Shown here in pieces: positions 11,099 to 61,359 of a stretch of DNA of 64,000 nucleotides. Positions within the stretch are counted from its first letter, which is position 1; the number at the start of each line of letters is the position of its first letter. Below the pieces are notes generated by a model that worked only from the letters and a program-made list of their open reading frames with translations, was not told where the DNA came from and made no database searches. This DNA is from Amycolatopsis sp. 2-15 (lineage in GTDB: Bacteria > Actinomycetota > Actinomycetes > Mycobacteriales > Pseudonocardiaceae): assembly GCF_030285625.1 (NCBI RefSeq), contig NZ_CP127294.1, forward strand, positions 4,870,501 to 4,934,500. The letters run 5' to 3'. A program made the translations under genes and the position numbers.

Positions 11099-11114
11099 AG
11101 GACTATCTAGTCCA
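11099..11114. promoter_or_regulatory. GGACT box 1 upstream of ctaD
   Basis: AGGACTATCTAGTCCA, an exact GGACT-N4-AGTCC palindrome. TCTAGT could be a -10 element for rightward transcription toward ctaD, 200 bp away. ATG 11118 lies six bases after it but opens only a 7-codon ORF. Confidence 0.75.
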
Positions 11115-11313
11115 CGTATGGTCACGCCGAGGTCGTGGTGACCCCGGCGACGAAGCAGGTCCGCCTGAGTGGAGCCGGGGCTCACGGACCGCCCGGATTC
11201 GACAAAGGCGAGCTCTGCCGGGAGATCCGGTGGTGCGGGTGCCGTCGAACGGTGCCCGACCCCGGGCCCAGGATCGAAAAGCCAGCCAGTGCAGCAATCA
11301 GCCGGAGGACACC

Positions 11314-13086
11314 ATGAGGACCGTTGCGCCCAGGTCGATCGCGACGCGGCCGTATCCCGCGCGCGTTGCCCCGAAGGGCACGGCGTTGCTTCGGTTGATG
11401 CGGACGACGGACCACAAGCAGATCGGCGTGATGTACCTGGTCACGGCGTTCGCCTTCTTCATGGCCGGCGGGGCGATGGCGATGCTGATCCGCACGGAGC
11501 TGGCTCGACCCGGGCTCCAGTTCTTGTCGCAGGAGCAGTACAACCAGCTGTTCACGATGCACGGCACGATCATGCTGCTGATGTATGCGACCCCTGTGCT
11601 GTTCGGGTTCGCGAACTTCGTGCTGCCGCTGCAGATCGGTTCGCCCGACGTGGCGTTCCCGCGGCTCAACGCGTTCTCGTACTGGCTCTACCTCTTCGGC
11701 AGCCTGATCGTCGTCTCCGGCTTCCTGACACCGGGTGGTGCGGCTGAGTTCGGCTGGACCGCCTACACGCCGCTGTCGGAGGCCGTCCACACTCCAGGCC
11801 CTGGCACGGACATGTGGATCTGCGGCCTCATCGTGTCCGGTCTGGGCACGATCCTCGGCGCGGTCAACATGATCACCACCGTGGTCTGCCTCCGCGCGCC
11901 GGGCATGACGATGTACCGGATGCCCATCTTCACCTGGAACATCCTCGTCACCAGCATTCTGATCCTCATCGCCTTCCCGATCCTCACCGCCGCGCTCTTC
12001 GGCCTGGAGGCAGACCGTCGGTTGGGCGCGCACGTGTTCGACCCGGCCAACGGCGGGGTGATCCTCTGGCAACACCTGTTCTGGTTCTTCGGTCACCCAG
12101 AGGTGTACATCATCGCGCTGCCGTTCTTCGGGATCGTGTCGGAGATCTTCCCGGTCTTCAGCCGCAAGCCCCTCTACGGTTACAAGGGGCTGATCTTCGC
12201 GACCCTGGCCATCGCTGCGCTCAGTGTCTCCGTGTGGGCACACCACCTCTATGCCACCGGCGCCGTGCTACTGCCGTTCTTCTCCTTCATGACCTTCCTG
12301 ATCGCGGTCCCGACCGGCGTGAAGTTCTTCAACTGGATCGGCACGATGTGGAAGGGCCAGCTGTCCTTCGAGACGCCGATGATCTTCTCGATGGGCTTCA
12401 TCGTCACGTTCCTCCTCGGTGGCCTGACCGGCATCCTGCTGGCCGCCCCGGCCATCGACTTCCACGTGTCGGACAGCTACTTCGTGGTGGCGCACTTCCA
12501 CTACGTCCTCTACGGCACCATCGCCTTCGCGACCTTCGCCGGGATCTACTTCTGGTTCCCGAAGATCACCGGCCGGATGATGGACGAGAAGCTCGGCAAG
12601 TGGCACTTCTGGACCACGTTCATCGGCTTCCACGGCACGTTCCTGGTCCAGCACTGGCTCGGCGCCGAGGGCATGCCCCGCCGCTACGCCGACTACCTCT
12701 CTTCGGACGGGTTCACCACGCTCAACACGATCTCCACGATCGGCGCGTACATCCTCGGCGCGTCCACGCTGCCGTTCATCTGGAACGTGTTCAAGAGCTA
12801 CCGCTACGGCGAGATCGTCACGGTCGACGACCCGTGGGGCTACGGCAACTCCCTCGAATGGGCCACGTCCTGCCCGCCGCCGCGGCACAACTTCACCGAA
12901 CTGCCCCGGATCCGCTCCGAGCGCCCCGCCTTCGAGCTGCACTACCCGCACATGATCGAGCGCCTGCACGCCGAAGGCGAGATCGGCTTCTTCGGCAAGC
13001 CCCGCCACGGCGCGGCGCCCTCGCAGAAGCTGGTCGACGCGACCATGCCGGGTGACCACAGCAAGGACAACTCGGGCGAGCAATAG
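11314..13086 (+). CDS. ctaD: Cytochrome c oxidase subunit I (aa3 type)
   Basis: 590 residues with about twelve membrane helices. Signature motifs are [12 protein letters not shown] for a low-spin heme ligand, [11 protein letters not shown] (CuB His with the His-Tyr cross-link), SVWAHHLY (CuB His pair) and VVAHFHYVL (heme ligands). It is the catalytic core of the terminal oxidase that reduces O2 and pumps protons. GGAGG lies five bases before ATG 11314; longer GTG starts lack support. No other oxidase subunit is near, although lone ctaD genes are common in actinomycetes. Box 1 upstream may place it under the window's palindrome regulator. Confidence 0.96.
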
Positions 13087-13132
13087 TCGTGCCCGGTGAG
13101 GCGGTCCACTTTGGTCTTCCGCTACCCGCGAC

Positions 13133-13759
13133 TCACGCCTGGAAGGTACGGATGTAGTCGATGGCCATGTCGAGCGCGATGCGCATCGGCTTGATGTCGT
13201 GCCCCGTCTGCGCGAGCAGGTACCCGCCTTCGAGGGCGCCCATCAAGCCGATGGCGAGCCGTTCGGGGTCGGCGTCACGGCGCAGTTTGCCCGTGTCACG
13301 CATCCGCCGCAGACCGTCGGCGATCAGGCCGAGCCAGGTTTCGAAGTGGCCGGCCAGGGCAGAGCGTGCCCGTTCGTTCTGGTCCGAAAGCTCGCTCGCG
13401 AGGGAGCCGAGCTGGCATCCGTAAGCCCCGTTGCGGAGAGCGTTCCGCTGGATGATCGCATCACGCCAGCGCTCGAGCCCGCGGATCGAGTTCAGCCGGC
13501 GCAGCTGTTCCCCCTGCGAGGCCAGCAGGTCTTCGGCCTGGTATTCGATCACGTCTTGGACGAGCGCGTCCTTGTCAGCGTAGTGATGGTAGAGCTGTGA
13601 CTTGCTGGTGCCGCTTGCCGCGCGGACATCGTCGAGCGTGGTGGCGGCCACCCCTTTGACCGTCATCAGGTCCACAGCAGCATGCAGGATTCGGGCCCGG
13701 GTCGCTTCACCGCGCGCCGTCAGCCGGACGGGCTTCTCTGTGCTCTCCGGTTCCACCAC
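13133..13759 (-). CDS. TetR-family regulator, LmrA/QdoR-like (copy A)
   Basis: 208 residues. The N-terminal helix-turn-helix reads TLDDVRAASGTSKSQLYHHY (about 43-62); the C-terminal ligand domain has GCQLGSLASEL, then ALEGGYLLAQT, the pattern of the LmrA/YxaF subfamily. It is nearly identical to the protein at 52479-53105 and more distantly related to 34371-34988. Tandem GTG codons (13759, 13756) are eight bases after a GATAAT -10 box, so the mRNA is probably leaderless; unlike copy B, no ATG occurs nearby. It is convergent with ctaD. It is a candidate reader of the GGACT boxes; ligand unknown. Confidence 0.92.
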   Translation of the reverse strand: MVEPESTEKPVRLTARGEATRARILHAAVDLMTVKGVAATTLDDVRAASGTSKSQLYHHYADKDALVQDVIEYQAEDLLASQGEQLRRLNSIRGLERWRDAIIQRNALRNGAYGCQLGSLASELSDQNERARSALAGHFETWLGLIADGLRRMRDTGKLRRDADPERLAIGLMGALEGGYLLAQTGHDIKPMRIALDMAIDYIRTFQA

Positions 13760-13845
13760 CGCGACAGATTATCGTACCTGCGTGCGCGGAGGTGTCACGC
13801 GATGCGACGCGGCCGGCCGAGCCCAGGTCGGCCATCCCGTGACCA

Positions 13846-14490
13846 TCATCCGCGTCCCAGTGCGATCGACACTCGGCGCGCCAGCTCAGGGACGACCTCG
13901 GCGGTGAACCAGGAGTTTTTCACGTGCCACCGGTAATTCAGTGGAGACGGGTGCACCAGCGGGAACTCGGCAGGGAGGTAGTCGCAGTAGGACCGCACGG
14001 TCTGGGTGAGGGTGGCCTCGGATCGGCCCTTGAGGTAGTACCGCTGGGCGTGCGCGCCGATGAGCACCCGGAGAGTGATGTGCGGCATCCTCGACAAGAT
14101 CTGCGGATGCCACCGTGGCGCGAATTCTTTGCGCGGAGGCAAGTCGCCCGTCTTGCCTTTGCCGGGGAAGTAGAAATCCATCGGCACGATGGCGAACAGC
14201 GAAGGGTCGTAGAATTCCTCGTCGCGGACGCCGAGCCAAGAGCGCAGCCGGACGCCGCTGGCGTCGTCCCACGGAATGCCGCTCTCCTGGGCTCGCCGGC
14301 CCGGCGCCTGGCCGATGATCGCGATCCGTGAGGCCGGGGAACCGGCCCACACGGGACGGTAGCCGAGGTCGCGTGCCCACGCGTTGGACGGGTCGGACGT
14401 CAACTCGTCCACGACCGCACACAAGTCGTCGATCAACCGCACTCCAGGTTCGTTGCCGGGAAGGCCGGGCCGCCGGCTTTCGGGGACCAC
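13846..14490 (-). CDS. Uracil-DNA glycosylase family protein
   Basis: About 214 residues. IAIIGQAPGRRAQESGIPWDD is the water-activating/uracil loop of the UDG superfamily; SLFAIVPMDFYFPGKG and HPSPLNYRW (the late minor-groove loop with His) complete the fold. It should remove uracil or a related damaged base in repair. No Cys cluster of the 4Fe-4S type is seen. GTG 14490 is 11 bases after a CATAGT element formed by box 2, fitting a short-leader transcript; GTG 14441 is another possible start. It follows nhaA on the same strand. Confidence 0.85.
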   Translation of the reverse strand: MVPESRRPGLPGNEPGVRLIDDLCAVVDELTSDPSNAWARDLGYRPVWAGSPASRIAIIGQAPGRRAQESGIPWDDASGVRLRSWLGVRDEEFYDPSLFAIVPMDFYFPGKGKTGDLPPRKEFAPRWHPQILSRMPHITLRVLIGAHAQRYYLKGRSEATLTQTVRSYCDYLPAEFPLVHPSPLNYRWHVKNSWFTAEVVPELARRVSIALGRG

Positions 14491-14498: not shown

Positions 14499-14514
14499 TG
14501 GACTATGTGGTCCA
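14499..14514. promoter_or_regulatory. GGACT box 2 upstream of the uracil-DNA glycosylase gene
   Basis: TGGACTATGTGGTCCA, one mismatch from the palindrome. Read on the minus strand it contains CATAGT, a plausible -10 box, 11 bases before the GTG start. It lies between the nhaA stop and this gene. Confidence 0.7.
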
Positions 14515-16877: not shown

Positions 16878-16893
16878 TGGACTAAATAGTTCT
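16878..16893. promoter_or_regulatory. GGACT box 3
   Basis: TGGACTAAATAGTTCT, one mismatch from the GGACT-N4-AGTCC core. AATAGT would serve as the -10 for the rightward gene at 16995. An in-frame GTG (16899) follows eight bases after it. Confidence 0.6.
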
Positions 16894-16994: not shown

Positions 16995-17504
16995 GTGAGT
17001 GAGCAGCTGGGCTTCATGCCGGGGTCGTCGGTTGCCGGCCTTCCGCTGAGGCTGTCCTCCGCCACCATCACAGGTGACGGCAGCCGATCCCGCGACCACG
17101 CGTCCGACGGCCTGGTGCGGTTGGAGCTCTCGATCAGTGCGCACGTGCTGGGCGAGATCGAAGTCATGCTCGCCACGACCCACGGGCGTGGGGAACGCGC
17201 TGCCAACTGTGCGGCGGAATACTCGGCGGCGCAGGGGCGCGAGCTCCGCATCAACGCCATCCTGCTGAGTTCGATGCCGGACATCCTTCACCTCGCCGGC
17301 CGCGGTGGCGGCACGCACCACAATGGAGCCGACGCGCAGTCGTACACGCTGACGTTGACCTTCTCCGATGGGCGCACAGCCGAGAGCTCGTGGAGCACGA
17401 CGTTCGACGTTCCGCGTTCGCCACTCGCAGACTCCACCTGGCGCCTGACCGTGCCGTTCAGTCACGCCTTGACGCCGTCCACGCTCCCTCGTCACGTGTC
17501 GTGA
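16995..17504 (+). CDS. Hypothetical protein, beta-rich
   Basis: 169 residues from GTG 16995, with AAAGG upstream. Third-position GC becomes high only from here on, so the earlier in-frame GTG 16899 is less likely even though it follows box 3 at a leaderless distance. Recognisable stretches are HVLGEIEVMLATTHGRGE and SYTLTLTFSDGRTAESSWST, suggesting alternating beta strands. No family, signal peptide or membrane helix was recognised. It is followed on the same strand by two acetyltransferases. Function unknown. Confidence 0.6.
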   Translation: MSEQLGFMPGSSVAGLPLRLSSATITGDGSRSRDHASDGLVRLELSISAHVLGEIEVMLATTHGRGERAANCAAEYSAAQGRELRINAILLSSMPDILHLAGRGGGTHHNGADAQSYTLTLTFSDGRTAESSWSTTFDVPRSPLADSTWRLTVPFSHALTPSTLPRHVS

Positions 17505-17620
17505 CACCCTCCGCGCGTCGCACCTCATCGGGCCGCGTCTCGGTCTGACGCCGCGGAAACGGTCTTCATGCACCGAGGGTGCAGGCCGTGCTGCTCGAGA
17601 AAATCATCAGGAGAAATGAA

Positions 17621-17962
17621 GTGAGTTCTGAGATGGATGTACAGCGCAACGTCGACAGCGGATCGTATGAGGCCGTGGTTGACGGGCAGGTCGTCGGCAT
17701 GATCGTCTACCACGCCCCGCGCGGTGATCGGCGAGTGACGTTCAGCCACACGATCGTCGATCCCGGACATCGTGGTCAAGGTGTCGCGACGCGGCTGGTG
17801 AAGCACGCTTTGGATGATCTGCGAGCCCGAGATCTGAAACTCACGAATTATTGCACCTTCGTGGCCGACTACATTGCCGACCACCCCGAATACAAAGAGC
17901 TTGTCGACAGCCGCTTCCCCGGCCGGGCGGCTGTGCCGGATCGCGTGCCACGCGACCGCTGA
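17621..17962 (+). CDS. GNAT-like N-acetyltransferase, YidJ/NATD1 type
   Basis: 113 residues. RVTFSHTIVDPGHRGQGVATRLVKHALDDL is the short GNAT core: beta-4, then the acetyl-CoA pyrophosphate loop (GHRGQGVA), then a helix. ADHPEY near the C-terminus is typical of the small NATD1 proteins. The acceptor is unknown. AGGAG lies seven bases before GTG 17621, which I prefer over the TTG/ATG options further upstream. Same direction as the next GNAT and the aldo/keto reductase. Confidence 0.88.
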   Translation: MSSEMDVQRNVDSGSYEAVVDGQVVGMIVYHAPRGDRRVTFSHTIVDPGHRGQGVATRLVKHALDDLRARDLKLTNYCTFVADYIADHPEYKELVDSRFPGRAAVPDRVPRDR

Positions 17963-18022
17963 TCAACGGAAGCTCGAACTGCCCCGGAACCGGGGAAATC
18001 GCTGAGGAAGAGGAGTGCAGAG

Positions 18023-18640
18023 TTGATTCCGGGGTCGCATTCGGTCGACATCGACGGAGAACTGATCCGGACCACCCGGCTGGAGCTTGCTCCGTGGACG
18101 ATGCCCGACGTCGAAGCGGCTCTGGGCATCTTCGGCGACGAAGAGGTTTCTCGGTGGCTCGCGCCGGCCATGGATCGAGTCGCGGACATCTCCGCCATGC
18201 AGGATCTGGTTGCCGGCTGGGTCGCGGACGGCTTGGAAACCGAGCCTCCGGTCGGTCGGTGGAAGGCTACCGATCTCGCGAGTGGACGCGTCGTGGGTGC
18301 GGTCTCGTTGCTGCCCTTGCCGCCCGACGACATCGATTTCGAGATCGGTGTCCAGATCGCTCGTGGCTGGTGGGGGAACGGTTATGCCGGTGAAGTCGGT
18401 GACGCGATCGCTCACTATGCCTTCGATGCCGGCACGGACGAGATCTTCGCCGTGTCACGCCCGGCGAACCAACGCGCCGCGGCGGCCGCGCGGCGGATGG
18501 GGATGGAGTGGGTCGGCCAAACCGGCAAGTACTACGACACGAGGCTCGACGTGTTCCGGTTGCGGCGTTACGACCTCGACGTGCCGGCCAGGGTGGCGCC
18601 GCCGGAAGGAGAGCGGCCGGGTGAGCTCACGGACATCTGA
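18023..18640 (+). CDS. GNAT N-acetyltransferase, RimJ/RimL type
   Basis: 205 residues. LIRTTRLELAPWTMPDVEAAL is the usual N-terminal strand and helix of RimJ/RimL-like enzymes. EIGVQIARGWWGNGYAGEV holds the acetyl-CoA loop (RGWWGNGYA), and RPANQRAAAAARRMGMEWVG follows. It acetylates an amine on a protein or small molecule. AGGAG lies seven bases before the TTG start. Its place between another GNAT and an aldo/keto reductase suggests a small detoxification operon; the substrate is unknown. Confidence 0.9.
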   Translation: MIPGSHSVDIDGELIRTTRLELAPWTMPDVEAALGIFGDEEVSRWLAPAMDRVADISAMQDLVAGWVADGLETEPPVGRWKATDLASGRVVGAVSLLPLPPDDIDFEIGVQIARGWWGNGYAGEVGDAIAHYAFDAGTDEIFAVSRPANQRAAAAARRMGMEWVGQTGKYYDTRLDVFRLRRYDLDVPARVAPPEGERPGELTDI

Positions 18641-18688
18641 CCGATTCATGTCGGCACAAATCCACAAGACAGTGAAAGAGACGAGACC

Positions 18689-19555
18689 ATGCCTGGAACC
18701 CTTCCTGATCGATGCGGTACCTTCACGATCGGAGGACACGCGATCACCCGGCTCGGTCTCGGGACCGCTCAGATAAGTGAGTCCGGTGTCTGGAGTCATC
18801 CGAAGGACGCCACTGAAGCGGCACGAGTGCTCCGAGAAGCGGTCGATCTCGGGGTGAATCTCATCGACATCGCCGAATCGTCGGGACCCTTCGACTACGA
18901 AGAACTCATTGTGCGGGCACTCAGCCCGTTCCCCGAAGACTTGCTGCTGATGATCAAAGGCGGACTTCTTCGATCGCCGAACGGGCAGTGGGAACCGGTG
19001 CCGCGGCCCTCGTTCCTTCGTAAACAGATCGAGACTCGGCTGTGGTACCTGAAGCTCGATCGCGTTCCGTTGTTCCAGCTGCACGGGTTCAGCCCGCACA
19101 CTCCCATAGCCGACCAACTCGGGCTTCTCACGGATATGCAGCGTGAAGGAAAGATCGGGCAGATCGGGCTGGCGGAGGTTACGTTGGCCGAGCTGGAAGA
19201 AGCAAGGACGTTTGCGGAGATCGCCACGGTCCAAGCTGAGTACAACCTCATCGATCGCGCGGCCGAACCGTTGCTGAACTACGCGGAAGCGGCGAACATC
19301 GGGTTCGTCCCTTGGCTTCCGCTGGCGACCGGCACGCTGGCCAGTGAGGATGGGCCGTTGGCGGAGCTGGCGCGACGGCGCGGTGTCTCGCCGGCGCAGC
19401 TCGCTCTGGCCTGGCTCTTGAATCGCTCACCCGCGATCCTCCCCACTCCCGGCACGCTGAGCATCCAGCACCTGAACGAAAACGTCTCTGCAGTCGACAT
19501 TTCCCTGACGGCACCCGAAGTCGATGATCTCGACCGACTGGTGGCCAGGCCGTAA
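18689..19555 (+). CDS. Aldo/keto reductase
   Basis: 288 residues, an (alpha/beta)8 NADPH-dependent reductase. ITRLGLGTAQI opens the barrel; NLIDIAESSGPFDYEELI occupies the place of the usual D-T-A-..-Y-G motif, and the active-site Lys is at MIKGGLLR. The His position is QLHGFS, and the C-terminus has LAWLLNRSPAILPTPGTLS for NADPH binding. Because the Asp-Tyr motif is altered (S-S-G-P-F-D-Y), substrate range may be unusual. It follows the GNAT gene by 48 bp. Confidence 0.9.
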   Translation: MPGTLPDRCGTFTIGGHAITRLGLGTAQISESGVWSHPKDATEAARVLREAVDLGVNLIDIAESSGPFDYEELIVRALSPFPEDLLLMIKGGLLRSPNGQWEPVPRPSFLRKQIETRLWYLKLDRVPLFQLHGFSPHTPIADQLGLLTDMQREGKIGQIGLAEVTLAELEEARTFAEIATVQAEYNLIDRAAEPLLNYAEAANIGFVPWLPLATGTLASEDGPLAELARRRGVSPAQLALAWLLNRSPAILPTPGTLSIQHLNENVSAVDISLTAPEVDDLDRLVARP

Positions 19556-19632
19556 GCGGGATCTCTTCCGGAAAAGCGCTGGGTGAACTGGTTCGGAAAA
19601 TTCTGGCTGTCAGTACAGGGAGGGTACTCGCC

Positions 19633-21171
19633 GTGGGCGGTTCAGACGTCGCTCTACCGCCACCGGTGGGCTTTCCGGTTCGGTCTGCGCAGGGTCGACG
19701 GATCCTGGTCGCGACGGTCCTCGGCGCGAGTATCGCGGGTATCGACTCAAGCGTCGTGACCGTCGCTCTTCCCGACATCGGCCGGGACTTGGGTGCGAGC
19801 TTCGCGTCCCTTCAGTGGACCGTGACCGGATACACCCTCAGCCTCGCCTCGCTCATCCTGCTGGCGGGTGGGCTCGGAGACCGGTACGGCCGCAAGCGGA
19901 TCTTCCTCCTCGGCGTCGCCGGGTTCACGTTCGCCTCGGTCCTGTGCGCGGCTGTCCCCGACGTGGGCACGCTCATCGGTGCGCGAATTCTGCAAGGCAT
20001 CGGTGGAGCGTTGATGGCACCGGCGAGCATGGCCATCCTGCAGTCGACGATCGCACCTGGTGATCGCCCGCGAGCGATCGGAACCTGGTCCGGGTTCGCC
20101 GGGATCGCGGGAGTTCTCGCCCCGTTCGTCGGCGGATGGCTGCTGTCGCTGGGTTCGTGGCGGTGGATCTTCCTGATCAACGTGCCCGTGGCGGTCATCG
20201 TGCTGGTGGTGACCATGCGCCACATTCCGGAGACCCGCGACGACGAGTCGTCCGGCATGGACTGGGGTGGCTCGGCGTTGGCCCTCGTGACCCTGGCCGC
20301 GGCGACCTACGCGTTGACCGCGATACCGGCGAACCCGGGCGGGCCGGGGGCGCTGGCGAGTGCGCTCGTGGCCGTCGCGGCGGGGATCGGGTTCGTGTGC
20401 TACGAACAGCGAACGACATCGCCGATGTTGCCGGCGCTGCTGAGGAAGTCCAGGTCGTTCGTCTCGATCAACGTGATCACGTTCATCGTCTACGGTGCGT
20501 TCGGCGTGTTCTCCCTGATCTTCACGATCGCCCTGGAGACCGTCGCCGGGTACAGCCCGGCCGAGGCCGGCAGCACTCTTCTGCCGATCACGATCATCAG
20601 CCTCGCGCTGTCTCCCTCCAGCGGTAAACTCGCTGCGCGGGTCGGGCCCCGCTGGCAACTGACCATCGGTCCCGTGTTGTGCGGCGCAGCGGCGCTGATG
20701 GCCTTGCAGATCAAGCCCGACACGGGTTACTGGAGTTGGGTGATCCCGCTCGAGTGCGTGTTCGGCCTCGGTACCGCCACGATGGTGGCACCTCTGACGT
20801 CTGTCGCGCTGTCGTCGCTACCGGGAGGCCACGTCGGCGTCGCGTCCGCGGTCAACAACGCTGTCGCGCGCGGTGCCGCCTTGCTGTGGATCGCGGCGCT
20901 TCCGCCGCTCGTCGGTCTCACCGGCGCTTCGTACGCCCAATCCGAGGCGTTCCAGCCCGGCTATCGCCTGGCTTGCGTGATCTGCGCTGCGGCGCTGTTT
21001 GTCGCCGGCGCGGTTGCCGCCGCGGTTTTCCGCAACCACACCCCCTGCGACCGGCGCCCTCTGGTCGCCCGTTCGTTGCCGCACCCGCTGTCCCGACAGC
21101 TGCGGGGCGCAAAAGTTGTTTCGACCTTCTCGATCCCTCACCGTCCGGACTTTTGGAGGAGGAACCTGTGA
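19633..21171 (+). CDS. MFS transporter, DHA2 (14-TM, EmrB/QacA) type
   Basis: 512 residues with about fourteen hydrophobic segments. SIAGIDSSVVTVALPDIGRD and LQWTVTGYTLSLASLILLAG are the characteristic motif D1/A region of EmrB/QacA exporters; GGLGDRYGRKRIFL is motif A. It would export drugs or metabolites with protons. GGAGGG lies near GTG 19633. The stop overlaps the next gene as GTGA, so the two are translationally coupled. Confidence 0.92.
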   Translation: MGGSDVALPPPVGFPVRSAQGRRILVATVLGASIAGIDSSVVTVALPDIGRDLGASFASLQWTVTGYTLSLASLILLAGGLGDRYGRKRIFLLGVAGFTFASVLCAAVPDVGTLIGARILQGIGGALMAPASMAILQSTIAPGDRPRAIGTWSGFAGIAGVLAPFVGGWLLSLGSWRWIFLINVPVAVIVLVVTMRHIPETRDDESSGMDWGGSALALVTLAAATYALTAIPANPGGPGALASALVAVAAGIGFVCYEQRTTSPMLPALLRKSRSFVSINVITFIVYGAFGVFSLIFTIALETVAGYSPAEAGSTLLPITIISLALSPSSGKLAARVGPRWQLTIGPVLCGAAALMALQIKPDTGYWSWVIPLECVFGLGTATMVAPLTSVALSSLPGGHVGVASAVNNAVARGAALLWIAALPPLVGLTGASYAQSEAFQPGYRLACVICAAALFVAGAVAAAVFRNHTPCDRRPLVARSLPHPLSRQLRGAKVVSTFSIPHRPDFWRRNL

Positions 21172-27199: not shown

Positions 27200-27215
27200 T
27201 GGACTTAATGGTCCT
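27200..27215. promoter_or_regulatory. GGACT box 4
   Basis: TGGACTTAATGGTCCT, one mismatch from the palindrome. It lies in the 411-bp gap between the STAS and ECF sigma genes. That gap shows no other gene except an 11-codon ORF at about 27222; the box is 345 bp before the sigma factor start. Confidence 0.6.
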
Positions 27216-27559: not shown

Positions 27560-28207
27560 GTGACCACCTCGGAGGTCGACGAGCGAGTCCTGCTCGATGG
27601 ACGGAGCTTCGATCCCGCGTCCGCCGTCTGGGTCCGGGAGTTGAGTCCTGGCAGCCCGGCATTCGAAGACGCCTGTCGCCGGCTGCACGCGATGCTCATC
27701 AAGATCGCCAGGAGGGAGGCCGCGCGCAGGTCGCCGGTCCTCCGGCTCACCGGCCCCGAACTCGAAGACCTGGCCCACCAGGCCGCCGCCGACGCCCTCA
27801 TGCGGATCACCCGCAAGATCGGTGAGTTCCGCGGCGACGCGCAGTTCAAGACCTGGGCCTTCAAATTCGTCATTCTCGAGGTCTCGACGAAAGTCGGCCG
27901 GCACTTCTGGCGAGACCACCGAGTGTCTCTCGACCACGACGCGGCCGAGTGCGCTCGGGCCGCCGTCGGTGACGAACCGCCCCACCAGGTGCAGGCCATC
28001 GAACTCCGGGCCGCCCTTGCTCATGCCATCGAGAGCGCACTGACCGAACGCCAACGCCGCGTCTTCGTCGCTGTGGCCATCGACAACATCCCGATGGATG
28101 CCCTCGCTGCAAAACTGGAAACCAACCGCAACGCCATCTACAAGGCGATGTTCGACGCCCGGCGCAACATTCGCGCCTACCTGGTGGACAACGACTTCAT
28201 CTCCTGA
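27560..28207 (+). CDS. RNA polymerase sigma factor, ECF type
   Basis: 215 residues. Region 2: LEDLAHQAAADALMRITRKI, then GDAQFKTWAFKFVILEVSTK for -10 recognition and melting. Region 4: ALTERQRRVFVAVAIDNIPM and LAAKLETNRNAIYKAMFDAR for the -35 element. No obvious anti-sigma gene is adjacent, though a STAS protein precedes. GTG start 27560; no strong ribosome-binding site. It recruits polymerase to a stress promoter set that cannot be deduced here. Confidence 0.9.
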   Translation: MTTSEVDERVLLDGRSFDPASAVWVRELSPGSPAFEDACRRLHAMLIKIARREAARRSPVLRLTGPELEDLAHQAAADALMRITRKIGEFRGDAQFKTWAFKFVILEVSTKVGRHFWRDHRVSLDHDAAECARAAVGDEPPHQVQAIELRAALAHAIESALTERQRRVFVAVAIDNIPMDALAAKLETNRNAIYKAMFDARRNIRAYLVDNDFIS

Positions 28208-28275: not shown

Positions 28276-28291
28276 CGGACTATATAGTCCA
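28276..28291. promoter_or_regulatory. GGACT box 5, promoter of the DUF5709 operon
   Basis: CGGACTATATAGTCCA contains the fully symmetric GGACTATATAGTCC. TATAGT reads as a -10 hexamer for the rightward operon; GTG 28297, eight bases further, is in frame with the DUF5709 gene and could be a leaderless start. Confidence 0.8.
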
Positions 28292-28341: not shown

Positions 28342-28776
28342 ATGAGCGACGACACTGACGAGTACGACGGTGGTGTCGACCTGGATGACGGCGTTCTGGA
28401 TCCCGAGGACAGCCTCGTGGATCGTGGTGTGTCCGACGTCCTGGACGAGGGGTACACGCCGCCGGAACGGCCCTCCGCGGTCTTCGACTGGGGGCTCACG
28501 GCACGGGAGGCCGCGGGCCACGAGGAGCTCGGCAAGCGGCTCCGGCGTGAAGTGCCGGACGTCTTTCCCGTCGCGGATGAGGGTGACGGGCTCGGGGACG
28601 CGTCCGACACGGACGGGGAGCTGTACGACGACCAGGTCGGAGAGGCGCGCGCGGGCCGGCTGGTCGAAGACCCGGACGCCGACGAGGTGTATCCCTACCT
28701 CTTCGCCTCCGACGTGGGTGTGGACGGCGCCGCGGCGTCCGCCGAAGAAGCGGCCATTCACATCGTCCCGGAATGA
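28342..28776 (+). CDS. DUF5709 family protein
   Basis: 144 very acidic residues. DEGYTPPERPSAVFDWGLTA and GKRLRREVPDV are the family's conserved blocks; Asp/Glu repeats fill the rest. The family is actinomycete-specific with no known function. GGGAG lies seven bases before ATG 28342. A leaderless GTG at 28297 would add 15 residues (MRVARPARPIGWENS). It heads an operon with a molybdopterin oxidoreductase and a flavin reductase, under box 5. Confidence 0.88.
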   Translation: MSDDTDEYDGGVDLDDGVLDPEDSLVDRGVSDVLDEGYTPPERPSAVFDWGLTAREAAGHEELGKRLRREVPDVFPVADEGDGLGDASDTDGELYDDQVGEARAGRLVEDPDADEVYPYLFASDVGVDGAAASAEEAAIHIVPE

Positions 28777-28822
28777 GTGCTGGAGCTCTCCGGCACTGAA
28801 CGCATGAGAAAGGTGGACAGAC

Positions 28823-34195: not shown

Positions 34196-34211
34196 TGGAC
34201 TTAACAGTCCA
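34196..34211. promoter_or_regulatory. GGACT box 6 between the MDR and TetR genes
   Basis: TGGACTTAACAGTCCA, exact 6-bp arms. On the minus strand it contains TTAAGT, a possible -10 for the MDR gene. Its position between a divergent TetR gene and its neighbour is the classical TetR arrangement. Confidence 0.8.
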
Positions 34212-34259: not shown

Positions 34260-34370
34260 TTGGGTTCGAATCTACTGTCTTGCCCTCAGCGGGTAAGAAG
34301 TGGACCATATGGACCCTGATTGCTCAGGGGGAAGTCCCCCACTGGAACGAGGGCGGCTACTGTTGCCACC

Positions 34371-39813: not shown

Positions 39814-40103
39814 CACTCTTCATCGACGACAACCTCGAACAGCTGCCCGACGGGCGGGTCGTTTGCCGGCACTGCGGGCAGGTCCTCGGCGACGCTGCAC
39901 AACCGCTGCGCGAGGCCCGCGTTCGGGAAACAGCACCGGCCACCGCCGGACCGTCCGTCCGGGAGAACGCGAGCCGGTTCACCGACCGTCCGGTGGTCTT
40001 CCGGCAAACCTTCTGCCCGACCTGCCTGACCCAGCTCCAAGCCGAGATCGTGCCGGGTGACGAACCGTCTTCACGGCACCGCTCCCTGGCGGTGGACGCA
40101 TGA
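39810..40103 (+). CDS. Small Cys-rich carboxylase subunit (acetone carboxylase gamma-like)
   Basis: 97 residues. VVCRHCGQVLGD near residue 19 and FCPTCLTQLQAEI near residue 69 form two CxxC pairs expected to bind zinc, as in small subunits of acetone and acetophenone carboxylases. Overlaps with both neighbours (GTGA and ATGA) show tight coupling. It presumably stabilises the carboxylase complex. Confidence 0.82.
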   Translation: MTLFIDDNLEQLPDGRVVCRHCGQVLGDAAQPLREARVRETAPATAGPSVRENASRFTDRPVVFRQTFCPTCLTQLQAEIVPGDEPSSRHRSLAVDA

Positions 40104-40861: not shown

Positions 40862-40889
40862 TCTCTCCCACCAGCAAAGGACTCGTCAC

Positions 40890-47189: not shown

Positions 47190-47936
47190 TCAGATGGCCA
47201 ACCCGGCGCCACCGGACACCACGATCTCCTGCCCGGTGACGTAGGCGGCCTCGTCCGAAGCCAGGAACGCGACGGTCCCGGCGATGTCTTCAGGCGTGCC
47301 CAGGCGACCGAACGGGTTCTTCTCCGCCATCTCCGCCATCGTCGCGGGGACGTCGTCAGATCCCGTGCCGAGCGCGGTCCGCGTCATGGGGGTGTCGGTG
47401 AATCCCGGGCTCACGGCGTTGACCCGGATGCGGCGCGGGGCGAGCTCCAAGGCCAGCGTCGGGATCATGGCCAGCAACGCGCCGTGCGACCCGGCCGCGA
47501 TGCTGTTGCCGGTCAGGCTTCGCGTCGCTCCGATTCCCACCGTGACAATGACAGAAGCGCCGTCGGTCAGCAGCGGCAGCGCCTTGATCAGGGTGAAGAA
47601 CTGCCCTTTGGTGTTGACGGCGAACACCTCGTCGAAGGCCGCTTCGTCGCAGACGTCCAGAGTCACGGGCCGGCTGACGCCGGCGTTCAGGTACAGCGTG
47701 GTCAGACTCCCGAATCGTTCGCCGACTTCGGACACCACCCTGTCGGTGTCAGCGAGCGAGCGCGCGTCGGCTTGCAAGACCAGGACGTCTTCGGGGAGCT
47801 CCTCGCGCGCCCGGGCGACGCTTTCCGGACGTTGTCCGGTGACCGCGACGCGATAGCCACGGCTGTGCAGAACCTGCGCGGTCGCCTTCCCGATCCCGCT
47901 GGTGCCGCCGGTGATCAGGGCTGCACGTGCCGACAT
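47190..47936 (-). CDS. SDR-like protein lacking the catalytic triad
   Basis: 248 residues. ITGGTSGIGKATAQVL and NAGVSRPVTLDV keep the Rossmann fold and N-A-G motif, and [15 protein letters not shown] is standard. The catalytic Y-x-x-x-K segment reads AAGSHGALL (Tyr to Ala, Lys to His), and the Ser strand reads VIVTVGIGA. A normal SDR reaction is unlikely; binding or regulatory roles are possible. TGGAG lies ten bases before ATG 47936. It is divergent from alkA, with box 7 between. Confidence 0.88.
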   Translation of the reverse strand: MSARAALITGGTSGIGKATAQVLHSRGYRVAVTGQRPESVARAREELPEDVLVLQADARSLADTDRVVSEVGERFGSLTTLYLNAGVSRPVTLDVCDEAAFDEVFAVNTKGQFFTLIKALPLLTDGASVIVTVGIGATRSLTGNSIAAGSHGALLAMIPTLALELAPRRIRVNAVSPGFTDTPMTRTALGTGSDDVPATMAEMAEKNPFGRLGTPEDIAGTVAFLASDEAAYVTGQEIVVSGGAGLAI

Positions 47937-48054
47937 GGTGATCACTCCACAGTAGTTGGTGTCTTGACACGACAGCCCGACGACATGGCGCCGAGCTCAG
48001 GCGGTGTCGCGAGGTGCCAGAGGACGGCTACCCGCGTATCCATCATTATCGAAG

Positions 48055-48070
48055 AGAACCATATAGTCCA
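48055..48070. promoter_or_regulatory. GGACT box 7 between the SDR and alkA-like genes
   Basis: AGAACCATATAGTCCA, two mismatches in the left arm. TATAGT is a plausible -10 toward alkA. GTG 48076, eight bases on, opens a 22-codon ORF whose TGA overlaps the alkA ATG at 48141. Confidence 0.6.
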
Positions 48071-48140: not shown

Positions 48141-48974
48141 ATGAGCGGGATCACTGCGCGTCCCGAGGGTGTGCGGCTGGATCGATGTGACCTGTTCCTG
48201 GACTATGTGGGCCATATTTGGGACCCTGGTGACGTGACCATGACTCGCACGGGGAAGCGCGCAACCAAGGAACAGCGCGCCGCGTACGAGTACTTGGGCT
48301 CGCGCGGCGACTCGCTCGCCCTGTGGGTGCGGTCGACAGGACCGATCGATGCCTACGAGTCACACCTTCCGGTCGAGGTCCACGCTCCGCTCGAATGGTT
48401 GTCGTTCGCGATCGCCTCGCGGCAGCTCAGCAGGGCAACCGCCTTGGCGATCTACCACCGGCTTGTCACGCAGCTGGGTGGCTCCATCACCACGGAGCGG
48501 GTCGTCACGGCCGACGAACGGATTCTGCGCGGAGCCGGCTTGTCTCACCGGAAAGCCAGGGCAATCCGCGAGGTTGCCGAACACGCCGATGACGGCCTGC
48601 TGGACCCGGACAAGCTCGCGGCGATGTCGGATACCGAAATTCAAACCAAGCTCGTGGCCGTGGCGGGTATCGGTCCTTCGACAGCGCAGATGTTCATGAT
48701 GCGGTACCTGCGTCGACCGGACATCTTCCCGGCCGGCGACCTCGCTGTGCGCTCGGCGATCACGACATTCGATCGACTGGACAGGCGGATCACGCCGAAG
48801 GCCGCGGAGCAGCGTAGTGAGCCATGGCGGCCGTATCGGTCGTATGCGACGGCGTACCTGTGGGGTTACGTGTGGGAGCTGCACCATACAGATGAAGGAG
48901 CCGGCATGGACAGCAGCTTCGTTCGAGCACGCCCGAAACCGACTGCCGGCCGCTCGGTCGAGGCCGGCTCATGA
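48141..48974 (+). CDS. AlkA-like 3-methyladenine DNA glycosylase
   Basis: 277 residues. EWLSFAIASRQLSRATALAI, then AGLSHRKARAIREVA, the helix-hairpin-helix VAGIGPSTAQMFMMRYLRRP, and FPAGDLAVRSA with catalytic Asp; EPWRPYRSYATAYLW completes the fold. It excises alkylated purines. The first ~60 residues are not glycosylase-like; TGGACTATGTGGGCCA (48199-48214), a box-like palindrome, lies inside them, so ATG 48240 may be the true start. The stop overlaps the next gene (ATGA). Confidence 0.9.
   Translation: MSGITARPEGVRLDRCDLFLDYVGHIWDPGDVTMTRTGKRATKEQRAAYEYLGSRGDSLALWVRSTGPIDAYESHLPVEVHAPLEWLSFAIASRQLSRATALAIYHRLVTQLGGSITTERVVTADERILRGAGLSHRKARAIREVAEHADDGLLDPDKLAAMSDTEIQTKLVAVAGIGPSTAQMFMMRYLRRPDIFPAGDLAVRSAITTFDRLDRRITPKAAEQRSEPWRPYRSYATAYLWGYVWELHHTDEGAGMDSSFVRARPKPTAGRSVEAGS
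48199..48214. promoter_or_regulatory. GGACT box 8 (weak), inside the called alkA start region
   Basis: TGGACTATGTGGGCCA differs by one base from box 2 and by two from the exact palindrome. It lies 41 bases before ATG 48240, an alternative alkA start. Confidence 0.45.
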
Positions 48975-52226: not shown

Positions 52227-52478
52227 CTCCGATGCGGCGGGTCAGACCGATCTCTTGGAAATGACAATGCGGCGATGTCTTCACTCGACGAGTCAGTCAG
52301 GCGGCGCTTCTCGACCGGACTCTGATGGCGTAAGTCGGTCGGGATGCAGGACTTCTCCGCCACGTCGGTTTCCCGGCGGTTAACGGTTGCGGCGTGAGGA
52401 AGCGGATTGACTTCGGCGCGGTTGGCCGAATTGCATCGCGGGGCACGCAGGCACAGGCAGGTGCGATAATCTGTCGCG

Positions 52479-53105
52479 GTGGTGGAACCGGAGAGCACAA
52501 TGAAGCCTGTCCGGCTGACGGCGCGGGGTGAGGCGACCCGGGCTCGGATCGTCCGCGCTGCCGTGGACGTGATGACGGTCAAGGGGGTGGCCGCCACCAC
52601 GCTCGACGACGTTCGCGCGGCGAGCAGTACCAGCAAGTCACAGCTCTACCGTCACTATGCCGACAAGGACGCGCTGGTCCGGGATGTGATCGAACATCAG
52701 GCCGAAGACCTGCTGACCGCGCAGGGGGAACAGCTGCGCCGGCTGGACTCGGTCAGTGGGCTCGAGCGGTGGCGTGATGCGATCATCCAGCGGAACACCC
52801 TGCGCAACAGGGCTTATGGATGCCAACTCGGCTCGCTGGCGTGTGAGCTTTCCGATCAGAACGAGCGGGCTCGATCTGCTCTGGCCGGCCACTTCGAAAC
52901 CTGGCGCGGCCTGATCGCGGATGGTCTGCGGCGGATGCGCGACGCGGGCAAACTGCGCTGTGACGCCGATCCCGAACGGCTCGCCATCGGCTTGATGGGC
53001 GCCCTCGAAGGCGGGTACTTGCTCGCGCAGACCGAGGGGGACATCAAGTCCATGCGCATCGCGCTCGACATGGCCATCGACTACATTCGTACTCTCGAAG
53101 TGTGA
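52479..53105 (+). CDS. TetR-family regulator, LmrA/QdoR-like (copy B)
   Basis: 208 residues, nearly identical to the product of 13133-13759 with scattered substitutions (for example SSTSKSQLYRHY versus SGTSKSQLYHHY). Upstream bases including GATAAT and the eight bases to GTG 52479 are also conserved, pointing to a recent gene duplication with promoter. Here an ATG at 52500 follows CGGAGAG and is an alternative start absent in copy A. Box 9 lies 132 bp after its stop, before an SDR gene. The likely function is repression via the GGACT boxes; ligand unknown. Confidence 0.92.
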   Translation: MVEPESTMKPVRLTARGEATRARIVRAAVDVMTVKGVAATTLDDVRAASSTSKSQLYRHYADKDALVRDVIEHQAEDLLTAQGEQLRRLDSVSGLERWRDAIIQRNTLRNRAYGCQLGSLACELSDQNERARSALAGHFETWRGLIADGLRRMRDAGKLRCDADPERLAIGLMGALEGGYLLAQTEGDIKSMRIALDMAIDYIRTLEV

Positions 53106-53236: not shown

Positions 53237-53252
53237 AGGACTGTATAGTCCA
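53237..53252. promoter_or_regulatory. GGACT box 9 upstream of the SDR-cupin operon
   Basis: AGGACTGTATAGTCCA, exact arms, with TATAGT as a likely -10. GTG seven bases further opens a 42-codon ORF of no known family. The SDR gene begins 333 bp downstream. Confidence 0.8.
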
Positions 53253-57525: not shown

Positions 57526-57541
57526 TGGACTGTATAGTCCC
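57526..57541. promoter_or_regulatory. GGACT box 10 upstream of the SnoaL-like gene
   Basis: TGGACTGTATAGTCCC, exact core. It sits in the 69-bp gap between the doxX stop and the SnoaL-like gene, both leftward; on that strand it contains TATACAGT. Confidence 0.78.
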
Positions 57542-58208: not shown

Positions 58209-58224
58209 AGGACTGTAGAGTCCA
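58209..58224. promoter_or_regulatory. GGACT box 11 between the doxX and MFS genes
   Basis: AGGACTGTAGAGTCCA, exact core, in the 409-bp divergent region; TAGAGT is a possible -10 toward the MFS gene. GTG seven bases on opens a 22-codon ORF. Confidence 0.78.
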
Positions 58225-58481: not shown

Positions 58482-59714
58482 ATGTCCAACGTGTCAAAGA
58501 CCGGCGTCGCGCAGCGGGGGACAACACGCACCCTGGCGTTCTTGTCCGCGGTGGTCGCGCTCGTGGCGTCGTTCGCCGCGGTGGGCTCGACGATCCCGCT
58601 GTTCAACATCTACCGGGCCGAGGACGGGTTCACCAACGCCGACATCTCGATCACCGTCGTCGCCTACTCCGTCGCCACCCTCAGCACACTGCTGGTGCTG
58701 GGACGGGTGTCCAACCACCTGGGGCGACGGCCCGCTTCCGTCGCGAGCCTCGGTCTGCTCCTGCTGGGCTGTGTGCTGTTGTTGAACGTGCACCACGTTG
58801 GCATCTTGATCGCCGGTCGGCTCCTGATGGGCTTCGGTGCTGGTGTGGCCAGCAGCAGCCTCACGTCCTACATCGTCGACGCCGCACCGGCCAGGCCCGC
58901 TTGGTTGGCCTCCGTCGCCGCCAGCCAGACAGTGATGCTCGGCCTCGCCGTCGGCGCCATCGGTTCCGGCGCCCTGGTCCAGTTCGGTCCGTGGCCGCGT
59001 GATCTCGTCTACCTGGTGGTGATCGGCCTGCTTCTCGTCTCTGCCGCGCTCATCATCGTGAGTCCGGAAACTGTCACTCCGACGCCGGGCGCTTGGCGGT
59101 CGCTGCGGCCCCGGGTCCGCGTTCCGGCCAGCGTGAGGCACCTGCTCCCCGTCGCGGCGGCGGTGCTCCTGGCGACCTGGGCGACCGGGGCCTTCTTTCA
59201 AGCCTTCGTGCCGGCGTTGGTCGAAGACCAGCTGCACAGTCAGAGCCCCCTCATTCTGGGGCTGGTGTTCGCCGCGTACATGGGTCCGAGTGTTCTCGGC
59301 GCTCCGCTGGGTGGCCGGTTCACGCCGGCGGTGGCCCAGCGCGTCGGCATGATCGGGTTCCTGGCGGGGATGATCGGGATCATCACGGCGATCGCGACCG
59401 GTGCGCTGGTGCTGTTCTTCGCCGCGACGATCGTTGCCGGCGCCAGCCAAGGCATCGCCATCAGTTCCGCCACCCGCGGCCTGCTGGAGGGCAGCGATGT
59501 GACCGACCGGGCCCCGATCTTCACGGTCGTCTACATCCTCTCCTACTGCGGCGCGACGATCCCCGCCCTCATCGCCGGCCGGCTCTCCGCGTCCTTGTCG
59601 CTACCGCAGATCGCTCTCGGGTACGGCGGCCTGGCCCTCATCGCCACCGTGTTCACCGTCCTCGCCGCCCGCAATCCCCACGCCGGCACGACCGGTGCAC
59701 AGCCGGCACGGTGA
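58482..59714 (+). CDS. MFS transporter
   Basis: 410 residues, about twelve hydrophobic segments. AAVGSTIPLFNIYRAEDGFT opens helix 1 and loop, and RVSNHLGRRPASVASLGLLL is motif A. The second half restarts after RPRVRVPASVRHLL. It is a probable metabolite or drug exporter of the DHA1 kind. GAAAGG lies upstream of ATG 58482, preferred over the 13-codon-longer start. Box 11 and a divergent doxX gene precede it. Confidence 0.92.
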   Translation: MSNVSKTGVAQRGTTRTLAFLSAVVALVASFAAVGSTIPLFNIYRAEDGFTNADISITVVAYSVATLSTLLVLGRVSNHLGRRPASVASLGLLLLGCVLLLNVHHVGILIAGRLLMGFGAGVASSSLTSYIVDAAPARPAWLASVAASQTVMLGLAVGAIGSGALVQFGPWPRDLVYLVVIGLLLVSAALIIVSPETVTPTPGAWRSLRPRVRVPASVRHLLPVAAAVLLATWATGAFFQAFVPALVEDQLHSQSPLILGLVFAAYMGPSVLGAPLGGRFTPAVAQRVGMIGFLAGMIGIITAIATGALVLFFAATIVAGASQGIAISSATRGLLEGSDVTDRAPIFTVVYILSYCGATIPALIAGRLSASLSLPQIALGYGGLALIATVFTVLAARNPHAGTTGAQPAR

Positions 59715-60235: not shown

Positions 60236-60281
60236 ATCGCCAATCGCCAATCGCCAATCGCCAATCGCCAATCGCCAATCG
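60236..60281. repeat. Heptanucleotide tandem repeat (ATCGCCA)6
   Basis: Six complete copies of ATCGCCA (60236-60277) plus ATCG, ending one base before the stop codon of the glycosylase gene on the minus strand. A unit of seven is not a multiple of three, so copy changes would alter any frame running through; here it lies in the 3' untranslated region. Confidence 0.9.
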
Positions 60282-61196
60282 TCAGCGGAACGGCCGGGCG
60301 CGTGGTGCGCGGTGGCTGCGCCGCGGCGCCGCGCGCGGAGTGAGCTCGAGGAGGCGAACCACCCGGTAGCGGTGCGGCCGCCACGGCAGGTAGAACGCCT
60401 CGATCTCGTGCTGCGCCAGTGGATGGCCGAGCAGGGCCGTGCCGGTCATCCGGCCGAGGTGGAAGTCGCCGAGCGGCAGCGCGTCGGCGTCGCCGAGCGC
60501 GCGGTGTCCGACCTGCGCCGAGGTCCACACCCCGACGCCCGGCATCGCTGCCATCAGTTGGTAGGCGCGAGCGGCGTCGCCGGCCGCGCGATCGAGCTTG
60601 GCCGCGTACCGTGCGGCGAAGATGACGGTCTTCGAGCGGTGCAGGTCGACGCCGGCACGCCGCCATTCCCAGATCGGAAGGTTCGCCCACACCTCGGGCG
60701 AAGGCATCACCCGCATCGGGTCGGGCGCCGGACCCGGTGCCGGGCCGCCGTGCGCGCCGACGAGGCGGGTCCAGGCGGCTTGAGCGTCCAAACCGACCAC
60801 CCGCTGTTCGAGGATTGCCGGGACGAGGGCTTCGAACAGCCGTCCCGTGTGCGGAACGCGGAGGCCGGGCAACCTGCTCCAGGCCCGCTCCAGAACGGGG
60901 TGTGCCGGTCGGAAGTCCTCGGGGTTGTCGTGTTCGCCGAGCTCGGTACGGATGTTGTCGACGAGCTCCGCGGCACCGGGCCCCCACGCGTCGACGTGCA
61001 GATCGTCCAGGCGCTGTTGCCGGATCCGGTAGGTGACCGGCCCGGACGGGGCCAGGGCTGTCCGCCACAGGGTCCCGTCGGCTTCCTCGCGGTGGGTCGG
61101 ATCGTGGCGGCCGCGCCTCAGGTTCTTGAGTGTCAGCTTCGCATCCACGGGAAAGGCGGGCTGCCAGTGCAGGGAACAGTCCGGCGGCAGCTCCAT
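60282..61196 (-). CDS. HhH-GPD DNA glycosylase (AlkA-like), long form
   Basis: 304 residues. An N-terminal beta domain (SLHWQPAFPVDAKLTLKNLR) resembles the AlkA_N or OGG1 N-terminal fold. The glycosylase core has FEALVPAILEQRVVGLDAQA, the hairpin MAAMPGVGVWTSAQVGHRAL, and ADALPLGDFHLG with the catalytic Asp. The tail is Arg/Pro-rich. It excises alkylated or oxidised bases. GGGAGGGG lies six bases before ATG 61196. Box 12 is 63 bp upstream. Confidence 0.9.
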   Translation of the reverse strand: MELPPDCSLHWQPAFPVDAKLTLKNLRRGRHDPTHREEADGTLWRTALAPSGPVTYRIRQQRLDDLHVDAWGPGAAELVDNIRTELGEHDNPEDFRPAHPVLERAWSRLPGLRVPHTGRLFEALVPAILEQRVVGLDAQAAWTRLVGAHGGPAPGPAPDPMRVMPSPEVWANLPIWEWRRAGVDLHRSKTVIFAARYAAKLDRAAGDAARAYQLMAAMPGVGVWTSAQVGHRALGDADALPLGDFHLGRMTGTALLGHPLAQHEIEAFYLPWRPHRYRVVRLLELTPRAAPRRSHRAPRARPFR

Positions 61197-61258
61197 GATC
61201 CCCTCCCTCGGGTGCGCAGGAGCAAAGTCCTTGATGAGGTGTGCGGTGTCCTCACTAG

Positions 61259-61274
61259 TGGACTTACAAGTCCG
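61259..61274. promoter_or_regulatory. GGACT box 12
   Basis: TGGACTTACAAGTCCG, exact core, 63 bp before the leftward glycosylase start in the divergent region shared with the AhpD-like operon. On the minus strand it reads GTAAGT as a possible -10. Confidence 0.78.
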
Positions 61275-61343
61275 TTGACTGTCAAGCAGCGAGCAGTTGA
61301 GCGGTAAGAACGACTCAGCGGGGAGCGTGCGTGCACGAGTGTC

Positions 61344-61359
61344 TGGTCTGTATAGTCCA
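61344..61359. promoter_or_regulatory. GGACT box 13
   Basis: TGGTCTGTATAGTCCA, one mismatch. It is oriented with TATAGT toward the rightward AhpD-like operon, 208 bp before its start. With box 12 this divergent region has two sites. Confidence 0.65.

Follow-up and report, generated by a model that had tools for sequence, protein, structure and literature searches.

Comparison with described TetR systems

TetR paralogs that share operators are a known kind of regulatory arrangement. The LmrA/YxaF paralogs of Bacillus subtilis reportedly share a regulon, and they resemble the system described here, which comprises a dispersed 16-bp palindrome (core GGACT-N4-AGTCC) and seven TetR genes in and beside a 64,000-nucleotide stretch of the Amycolatopsis sp. 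2-15 genome (the window), in that both involve TetR repressors of the same Pfam type; the TetR profiles also match the YxaF structure (1sgm). The B. subtilis system consists of two repressors and a few operons, whereas four TetRs with a kept recognition helix, three divergent TetRs, and about 18 sites over about 73 kb are found here, and YxaF has no cysteine at the position conserved in the TetRs of this locus. According to the available text of one report, QdoR (YxaF) represses its own gene and a detoxifying dioxygenase (PMC8481877). In Streptomyces avermitilis, the adjacent and similar TetRs SAV576 and SAV577 bind the same sites and repress each other, with CCRTACRVYGTATGS given as the SAV576 operator (PMC4051647). 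Both of those proteins bind DNA, unlike the partners proposed here, and no large gene array is mentioned in the available text of that report (PMC4051647). Escherichia coli NemR is likewise a TetR repressor, acting on electrophile-detoxifying genes, and is among the nearest solved folds to a model of one divergent TetR (T43), but it governs one operon rather than an array, and its Cys21 and Cys116 are unmatched in the TetRs here.

In all likelihood, the palindrome is the operator of an LmrA/YxaF-type TetR family, in which four kept-helix TetRs would repress a local regulon and divergent or headless paralogs (ligand domains lacking the DNA-binding head) would modulate them. Among the best-ranked open-access papers, judged by title and start of abstract, none dealt with this palindrome as an operator, with a regulon of this kind, or with a TetR whose partner lacks DNA binding. 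On this weak evidence, what is apparently new is that the array is so large and so local, that it recurs in other families, and that some partners lack DNA binding.

Local concentration of the palindrome

The exact pattern GGACT-N4-AGTCC was found seven times in the window, the number given in the original prediction, compared to a mean of 0.06 in shuffled sequences (0 of 100 shuffles reached 7), and the 13 boxes listed there were all recovered by pattern and matrix scans. The whole genome (10,050,063 bases, one contig, with the window at 4,870,501-4,934,500) contained 12 exact copies, 7 of them inside the window (binomial probability that 7 of the 12 would lie in 64 kb of a 10.05-Mb genome, ~3e-13). 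The five copies outside the window had G+C-rich spacers and look like chance occurrences, and the pattern read backwards occurred 7 times genome-wide. The 16-base form with up to three mismatches was also enriched (34 copies versus a mean of 17.5; 0 of 100 shuffles reached 34). The bare 10-base pattern with up to two mismatches was not enriched in the window (29 found versus 31.7 expected).

A site matrix built from the 13 boxes was scanned over 464 kb around the window. Every match scoring above 14.1 fell between window positions -3706 and 69308, with the next match (14.05) lying 175 kb to the left. With weaker sites included, the array contained 18 sites over ~73 kb; those beyond the boxes first noted were a weak site at 34301 in the window and sites at -3706, 67920, 69131, and 69308 just outside it. 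Given the mismatch counts, the weak sites at 48055 and 48199 rest on their scores (23.1 and 17.9, from a matrix that includes both) and on the presence of sites upstream of the orthologs elsewhere. Equal density throughout the genome, named beforehand as the contrary outcome, was clearly not found in the genome-wide exact count or in the matrix scan, and this uneven density points to a local regulon.

The G+C content in 12-kb bins was 65.5 to 68.4% from about -16 to +80 kb and 72 to 73% at both ends of the 144-kb region, which is compatible with a foreign origin. No integrase was found among the genes scanned for domains (a subset of genes, with the far flanks outside the annotation), and no RNA families or tRNAs were found in the window.

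Conservation within Amycolatopsis

TetRs of this type (E ≤ 1e-60) were detected in 6 of 80 genomes of the genus, with four copies each in the host, G090, and G094, three each in G068 and G077, and one in G084. A close ortholog (85 to 98%) of the phosphoenolpyruvate (PEP) mutase encoded at 62172-63020 was present in exactly the same 6 of 80 genomes, three of which held further, more distant copies (58 to 71%). Sites scoring above 13.5 numbered 18 in the host region and 20, 18, 13, 14, and 6 in the other five, while permuted matrices averaged 0.1 to 0.85 (maximum, 5); because the matrix was derived from host sites, the host count is partly circular and the other five are not.

Gene order in the array was kept in G094 and in much of G090, and the arrays of G068, G077, and G084 were compact and reshuffled. 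Within the genus, a site was linked to a gene when it lay up to 450 bp upstream of that gene or its operon head. By this rule, a site was present in all six regions before the uracil-DNA glycosylase gene (with or without its TetR), the unknown-GNAT-GNAT run, the AhpD-PEP mutase-nitroreductase run, the DUF5709/Mo-oxidoreductase run, and T43, and in all five regions having the gene before those for the zinc-type oxidoreductase (33202-34146), the SDR (47190-47945), the MFS transporter (58482-59714), and the AlkA-like protein (60282-61196). The HhH-GPD gene (48141-48974) and the ECF-like gene each lacked a site in G090. Since gene order is shuffled while the links between operators and genes are kept, regulation may hold this gene neighborhood together. 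Of the 89 sites in the six genomes, 78 were purely upstream of a start codon predicted at most 450 bp away, another 3 were upstream but also overlapped a predicted gene, 1 lay in coding sequence, and 7 lay elsewhere, so that the earlier description of 12 of the 13 boxes as intergenic was nearly right.

Genome-wide matches to the 16-mer with one mismatch numbered 11 to 21 in the six array genomes and 2 to 15 in the others, with the exception of G101 (27 matches). These counts alone do not mark every array genome (11 in G084 versus up to 15 in genomes without such a TetR), and whole-genome counts of exact sites were noisy (14 in G094, 6 of them in the compared region). G101 was considered as a counterexample and rejected, as 22 of its 27 matches represented one dispersed repeat that contains TGGACTGACGAGCCCA and occurs on many contigs.

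Candidate repressors and their link to the palindrome

LmrA/YxaF-type membership was defined by TetR_C_13 (PF16925/PF21993). The genome contained 25 TetR_C_13 matches, 7 of which were in or beside the 73-kb stretch (T21, T43, T58, and T75 to T78). The C-terminal PF16925 match exceeded the curated cutoff in T21, T43, T58, T75, T76, and T78, with T77 at 24.9 bits, below the cutoff of 27. The TetR_N domain was matched in T21, T58, T76, and T78, and no TetR_N match was found in T75 and T77 at E 0.001 or in T43 at E 0.1. T21, T76, and T78 were 88%, 62%, and 70% identical to T58, respectively, and all four keep the helix TSKSQLY; the one regulator originally proposed is therefore to be replaced by four closely related candidates. 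The regulon runs past the window, with four more TetR genes just to its right beyond the three first noted. In a scan of named genomes, the closest named relatives of the local TetRs were in Amycolatopsis. Elsewhere in the host genome, the next nearest DNA-binding relatives (at 4.388 and 0.152 Mb) had a weak site within 1.5 kb (scores of 14.7 and 14.5), and the other 16 TetR_C_13 matches outside the stretch had no site above 12 within ~1.5 kb.

The scan of named genomes returned 122 TetR relatives, of which the best 80 loci were kept; six of these came from Amycolatopsis and some overlapped, so not all are independent. The genera included Streptomyces, Micromonospora, Kribbella, Microbispora, Planotetraspora, and Arthrobacter. 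Every 5-base inverted repeat with a spacing of 4 was counted around these loci, and each count was divided by the expected number plus 0.5; GGACT came first in this ranking, with 99 copies spread over 61 of the 80 loci where 1.54 would be expected. Together with the co-occurrence of TetR and PEP mutase in the same six Amycolatopsis genomes, this enrichment supports the TetR control that had been predicted. The CGACG repeat was also above simple expectation (146 versus 7.2), an excess that probably stems from codon composition. The loci were fetched with patterns that included the helix KSQLY, so a conserved helix in other genera does not count as evidence on its own.

In the 74 loci outside Amycolatopsis, the most common companions were zinc-type oxidoreductases (41 and 26 loci in two queries), MFS transporters (24), Mo-oxidoreductases (23), and ECF-like proteins (19). 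Sites within 400 bp upstream of the matched part were found for zinc-type oxidoreductases in 17 and 12 loci, MFS transporters in 1, Mo-oxidoreductases in 9, and ECF-like proteins in 14; outside Amycolatopsis, only some of the families thus show a clear link between site and gene. Among 394 sampled genomes of the class, such a TetR (E ≤ 1e-60) was carried by 22, the host being one of them. Regions of four genomes from two other families were compared (G168, G325, and G242 from one genus and G423 from the other family). G168, G325, and G423 shared many of these gene families, with sites but in a different order, and G242 contained a smaller unit.

It is possible, but unlikely, that each TetR serves its own neighbors with its own ligand. 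The shared operator would then be left over from duplication, and the array would be a patchwork of several small, cross-talking regulons and not a single one. T58 was recently duplicated from T21, and many loci in other genera hold one TetR with one to three sites, as expected from such a patchwork. However, the T21, T76, and T78 groups each span distant Amycolatopsis species and are therefore older than the split of those species, and they keep the helix, with ratios of nonsynonymous to synonymous differences (pN/pS) of only 0.06 to 0.14 in the DNA-binding part. With 18 sites for four such TetRs, most sites are also without a TetR of their own. It is very probable that the same ~18 sites are bound by each of T21, T58, T76, and T78.

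Divergent and headless TetR paralogs

In T43, T75, and T77, the recognition helix is altered and varies from ortholog to ortholog. In the kept-helix groups, pN/pS values were lower in the DNA-binding part (0.06, 0.14, and 0.13) than in the ligand part (0.18, 0.29, and 0.21), and the order was reversed in the divergent groups (0.53, 0.39, and 0.68 versus 0.38, 0.29, and 0.46); each group held five to seven rows, a few of them shortened by start calls. Measured by identity, T75 showed the reversal clearly, and the two parts were nearly equal in T43 and T77. An AlphaFold model of T43 had an intact TetR fold (predicted local distance difference test [pLDDT] score, 89.6), which suggests that the change lies in the surface and not in the fold.

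In G168, G325, and G423, a kept-helix TetR adjoins a ligand domain without a DNA-binding head. A second headless type, sought in 18 chosen loci and present in 12, was 141 to 158 amino acids long, began with MRT(H/Y)FAEVLA in 8 of 12 cases, and lay 30 to 75 bp before the matched part of the TetR. The 12 species that carry it belong to five genera: Microbispora (5), Arthrobacter (4), and Nocardioides, Planotetraspora, and Glaciibacter (1 each); in Microbispora corallina, for example, the headless gene lies at 9522-9971 of locus L111. A site was centered 54 to 57 bp before the headless ATG in 10 of 12 loci, so close that a lost head could not fit between the two. The other two loci, both from Arthrobacter (L115 and L127), had no site within 220 bp of the headless gene. 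All 12 proteins matched only TetR C-terminal families (best, TetR_C_13_2, below cutoff), and none matched TetR_N. Across the 80 loci, a ligand-domain frame without a detected head stood beside the fetched TetR in 17, two of which were Amycolatopsis T77 with its decayed head. L113 has a headless partner, and L125 has one in the 80-locus survey, outside the second-type set of 12. Some TetR partners thus seem, from their sequences, to have lost DNA binding, and we propose that the divergent and headless TetRs are operator-controlled partners or antirepressors of the true TetR.

These paralogs might instead be decaying leftovers without function, which we regard as improbable. The variable recognition helices, a ligand part in T43 and T77 about as variable as the DNA-binding part, the poor headless fold model (pLDDT, 55.6), the domain scores of all 12 headless proteins below cutoff, and the lack of such a partner in most of the 80 loci would all fit decay. 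They are set against retention of the headless form across five genera with a median omega of 0.31 (66 pairs), the steady position of its upstream site, and the ligand domain of T75, which was 81 to 92% identical between species compared to 61 to 81% for the DNA-binding part. A role of the palindrome in chromosome organization or element maintenance and not in gene regulation is very improbable. Many palindromes are indeed confined to one chromosomal region, but 81 of the 89 sites have a predicted start codon no more than 450 bp downstream, the sites travel with genes where order is shuffled, and related TetRs in other genera have these sites nearby.

Proposed regulation and candidate signal

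Local clustering, conservation, linkage of TetR and motif, and decay or absence of DNA-binding domains were computed, and from these we infer binding, repression, a shared inducer, and heterodimers. Under the favored reading, in which the palindrome is a TetR operator, the four kept-helix TetRs would repress redox, DNA glycosylase, acetyltransferase, and export genes, the ECF sigma-like gene, and at least the T21 operon. All four would be released together by an inducer or by the oxidation of a thiol, the likely trigger being an electrophile, an oxidant, or a toxic small molecule. The enzymes, glycosylases, and exporters would then be made, and the ECF sigma-like protein might amplify the response. 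T43, T75, and T77, and the headless domains in other genera, stand behind the same operators and would probably modulate the repressors by heterodimerizing or by ligand binding. More tentatively, and at somewhat less than even chances, the array may belong to a modular community of genes that share a single operator, recur in several actinobacterial families, and are switched by TetRs and coexpressed paralogs without DNA binding. On this reading, Amycolatopsis would have lost DNA binding in these paralogs by helix decay, and the entire head would be missing in Microbispora, Planotetraspora, Arthrobacter, Nocardioides, and Glaciibacter. Because the headless gene usually lies behind the same operator, its product would be made once repression is lifted and would titrate the repressor in inactive heterodimers, giving a self-sustaining switch.

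One cysteine was invariant in the canonical TetR rows (106 of 106, not all independent). In a second alignment (A2), the same cysteine was the sole conserved cysteine column (36 of 36 rows, partly overlapping with the 106), and it was kept in 3 of 25 rows without a detected head. It aligns with Cys106 of E. coli NemR, a residue tied to reactive-chlorine sensing in the available text of two reports (PMC5297802, PMC7464077). The cysteine is also present in the solved relatives 3qbm and 3dpj and not in YxaF (1sgm), which makes it a lead and not proof. At the position of Lys175, the proposed sulfenamide partner in NemR, the TetRs here have Gln; a sulfenamide switch like that of NemR is therefore not expected, and these TetRs were not classed as NemR.

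Several observations weigh against this account. The hydantoinase run (35706-42356) and the transaldolase/QcrB genes (23719-26426) have no site here, and a search for -35/-10 promoter signals beside the sites revealed nothing clear. A TetR at 8.19 Mb with the similar helix TGKSQLYHYF has no site nearby, many companions in other genera lack an upstream site (MFS, present in 1 of 24 loci; flavin reductase, 0 of 20), and the four kept-helix TetRs could differ in ligand or affinity. Against heterodimers in particular, the adjacent TetRs SAV576 and SAV577 were reported not to form one, in the available text (PMC4051647).

If the proposal holds, unlinked redox, repair, and uncharacterized genes become one testable regulon with a proposed operator and regulators and with relatives in several actinobacterial families. 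Headless TetRs would add an unusual kind of built-in modulator to a repressor family that is very common, and if they heterodimerize, single-repressor models of TetR control would need revision where such partners exist.

Genes of the array

The genes of the array include those for zinc-type oxidoreductases, a nitroreductase, an aldo-keto reductase, a thioredoxin, DNA glycosylases, and exporters (Table 1). Detoxification, the role originally suggested, is plausible and fits this list of redox enzymes, glycosylases, and exporters.

Table 1. Palindromic sites, TetR genes, and other predicted genes of the array (window coordinates)
Feature	Coordinates	Strand	Remarks
Operator AGGACTATCTAGTCCA	11099..11114	none	291 bp before ctaD-like gene
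Operator TGGACTATGTGGTCCA	14499..14514	none	65 bp before uracil-DNA glycosylase-TetR T21 pair; site here in 6/6 genomes
Operator TGGACTAAATAGTTCT	16878..16893	none	Before unknown-GNAT-GNAT (then aldo-keto reductase, MFS); site here in 6/6 genomes
Operator TGGACTTAATGGTCCT	27200..27215	none	352 bp before ECF sigma-like gene
Operator CGGACTATATAGTCCA	28276..28291	none	Before DUF5709-Mo-oxidoreductase-flavin reductase
Operator TGGACTTAACAGTCCA	34196..34211	none	Between zinc-type oxidoreductase (left) and divergent TetR T43 (right)
Weaker site TGGACCATATGGACCC	34301..34316	none	Directly before T43
Operator AGAACCATATAGTCCA	48055..48070	none	Between SDR (left) and HhH-GPD glycosylase (right)
Weaker site TGGACTATGTGGGCCA	48199..48214	none	Near predicted start of HhH-GPD gene
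Operator AGGACTGTATAGTCCA	53237..53252	none	Between TetR T58 and SDR-cupin-transketolase run; 340 bp before SDR
Operator TGGACTGTATAGTCCC	57526..57541	none	62 bp before SnoaL-like gene
Operator AGGACTGTAGAGTCCA	58209..58224	none	Between DoxX-like gene (weak match) and MFS transporter
Operator TGGACTTACAAGTCCG	61259..61274	none	71 bp before weakly AlkA-like gene (left)
Operator TGGTCTGTATAGTCCA	61344..61359	none	Before AhpD-PEP mutase-nitroreductase run; upstream site in 6/6 genomes
TetR T21, LmrA/YxaF-type	13133..13768	-	Helix TSKSQLYHH; open frame from upstream stop
TetR T43, divergent	34371..34988	+	Fold predicted intact; no TetR_N match; recognition helix changed (VTQAELNQLF)
TetR T58	52470..53105	+	Recent duplicate of T21 (88% identical); open frame from upstream stop
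TetRs T75, T76, T77, T78	between 67190 and 70889		Right of window
Uracil-DNA glycosylase superfamily	13846..14442	-	
Unknown-GNAT-GNAT-aldo-keto reductase-MFS run	16995..21171	+	
ECF sigma factor-like protein	27560..28207	+	TIGR02937, 51.8 bits (cutoff, 42.9); Pfam region 4 below cutoff
DUF5709, Mo-oxidoreductase, flavin/NAD reductase	28342..30129	+	
Zinc-type (MDR) oxidoreductase	33202..34146	-	
SDR oxidoreductase	47190..47945	-	
HhH-GPD (AlkA-like) DNA glycosylase	48141..48974	+	
MFS transporter	58482..59714	+	
Weakly AlkA-like protein	60282..61196	-	29.5 bits (model cutoff, 229); no Pfam match
AhpD/CMD, PEP mutase family, nitroreductase	61567..63727	+	PEP mutase at 62172-63020

One HhH-GPD glycosylase (48141-48974), two weakly AlkA-like proteins (43410-44099 and 60282-61196), and a uracil-DNA glycosylase (13846-14442) are encoded in the one array, and the presence of several DNA glycosylase-like genes suggests a defense against base damage. 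The ctaD-like, transaldolase, and QcrB-like genes at 11398-13086 and 23719-26426 lie inside the array, and of the five related regions, 4, 4, and 5, respectively, retain them; these families are usually regarded as housekeeping.

The run at 35706-42356 consists of genes for hydantoinase A/B, an SDR, and an aldehyde dehydrogenase with a small open reading frame. It contains no operator and had no counterpart at ≥45% identity in the five other Amycolatopsis regions, and on both grounds it is perhaps a later insertion. A LuxR-type AAA regulator encoded at 30268-33066 was matched by fragments only in G090, with no match in the other four regions at the threshold used. The leftmost site, at -3706, is flanked by a cytochrome P450 gene and a gene for a FAD-binding_4/berberine-type oxidase (window positions -5313 to -1705).

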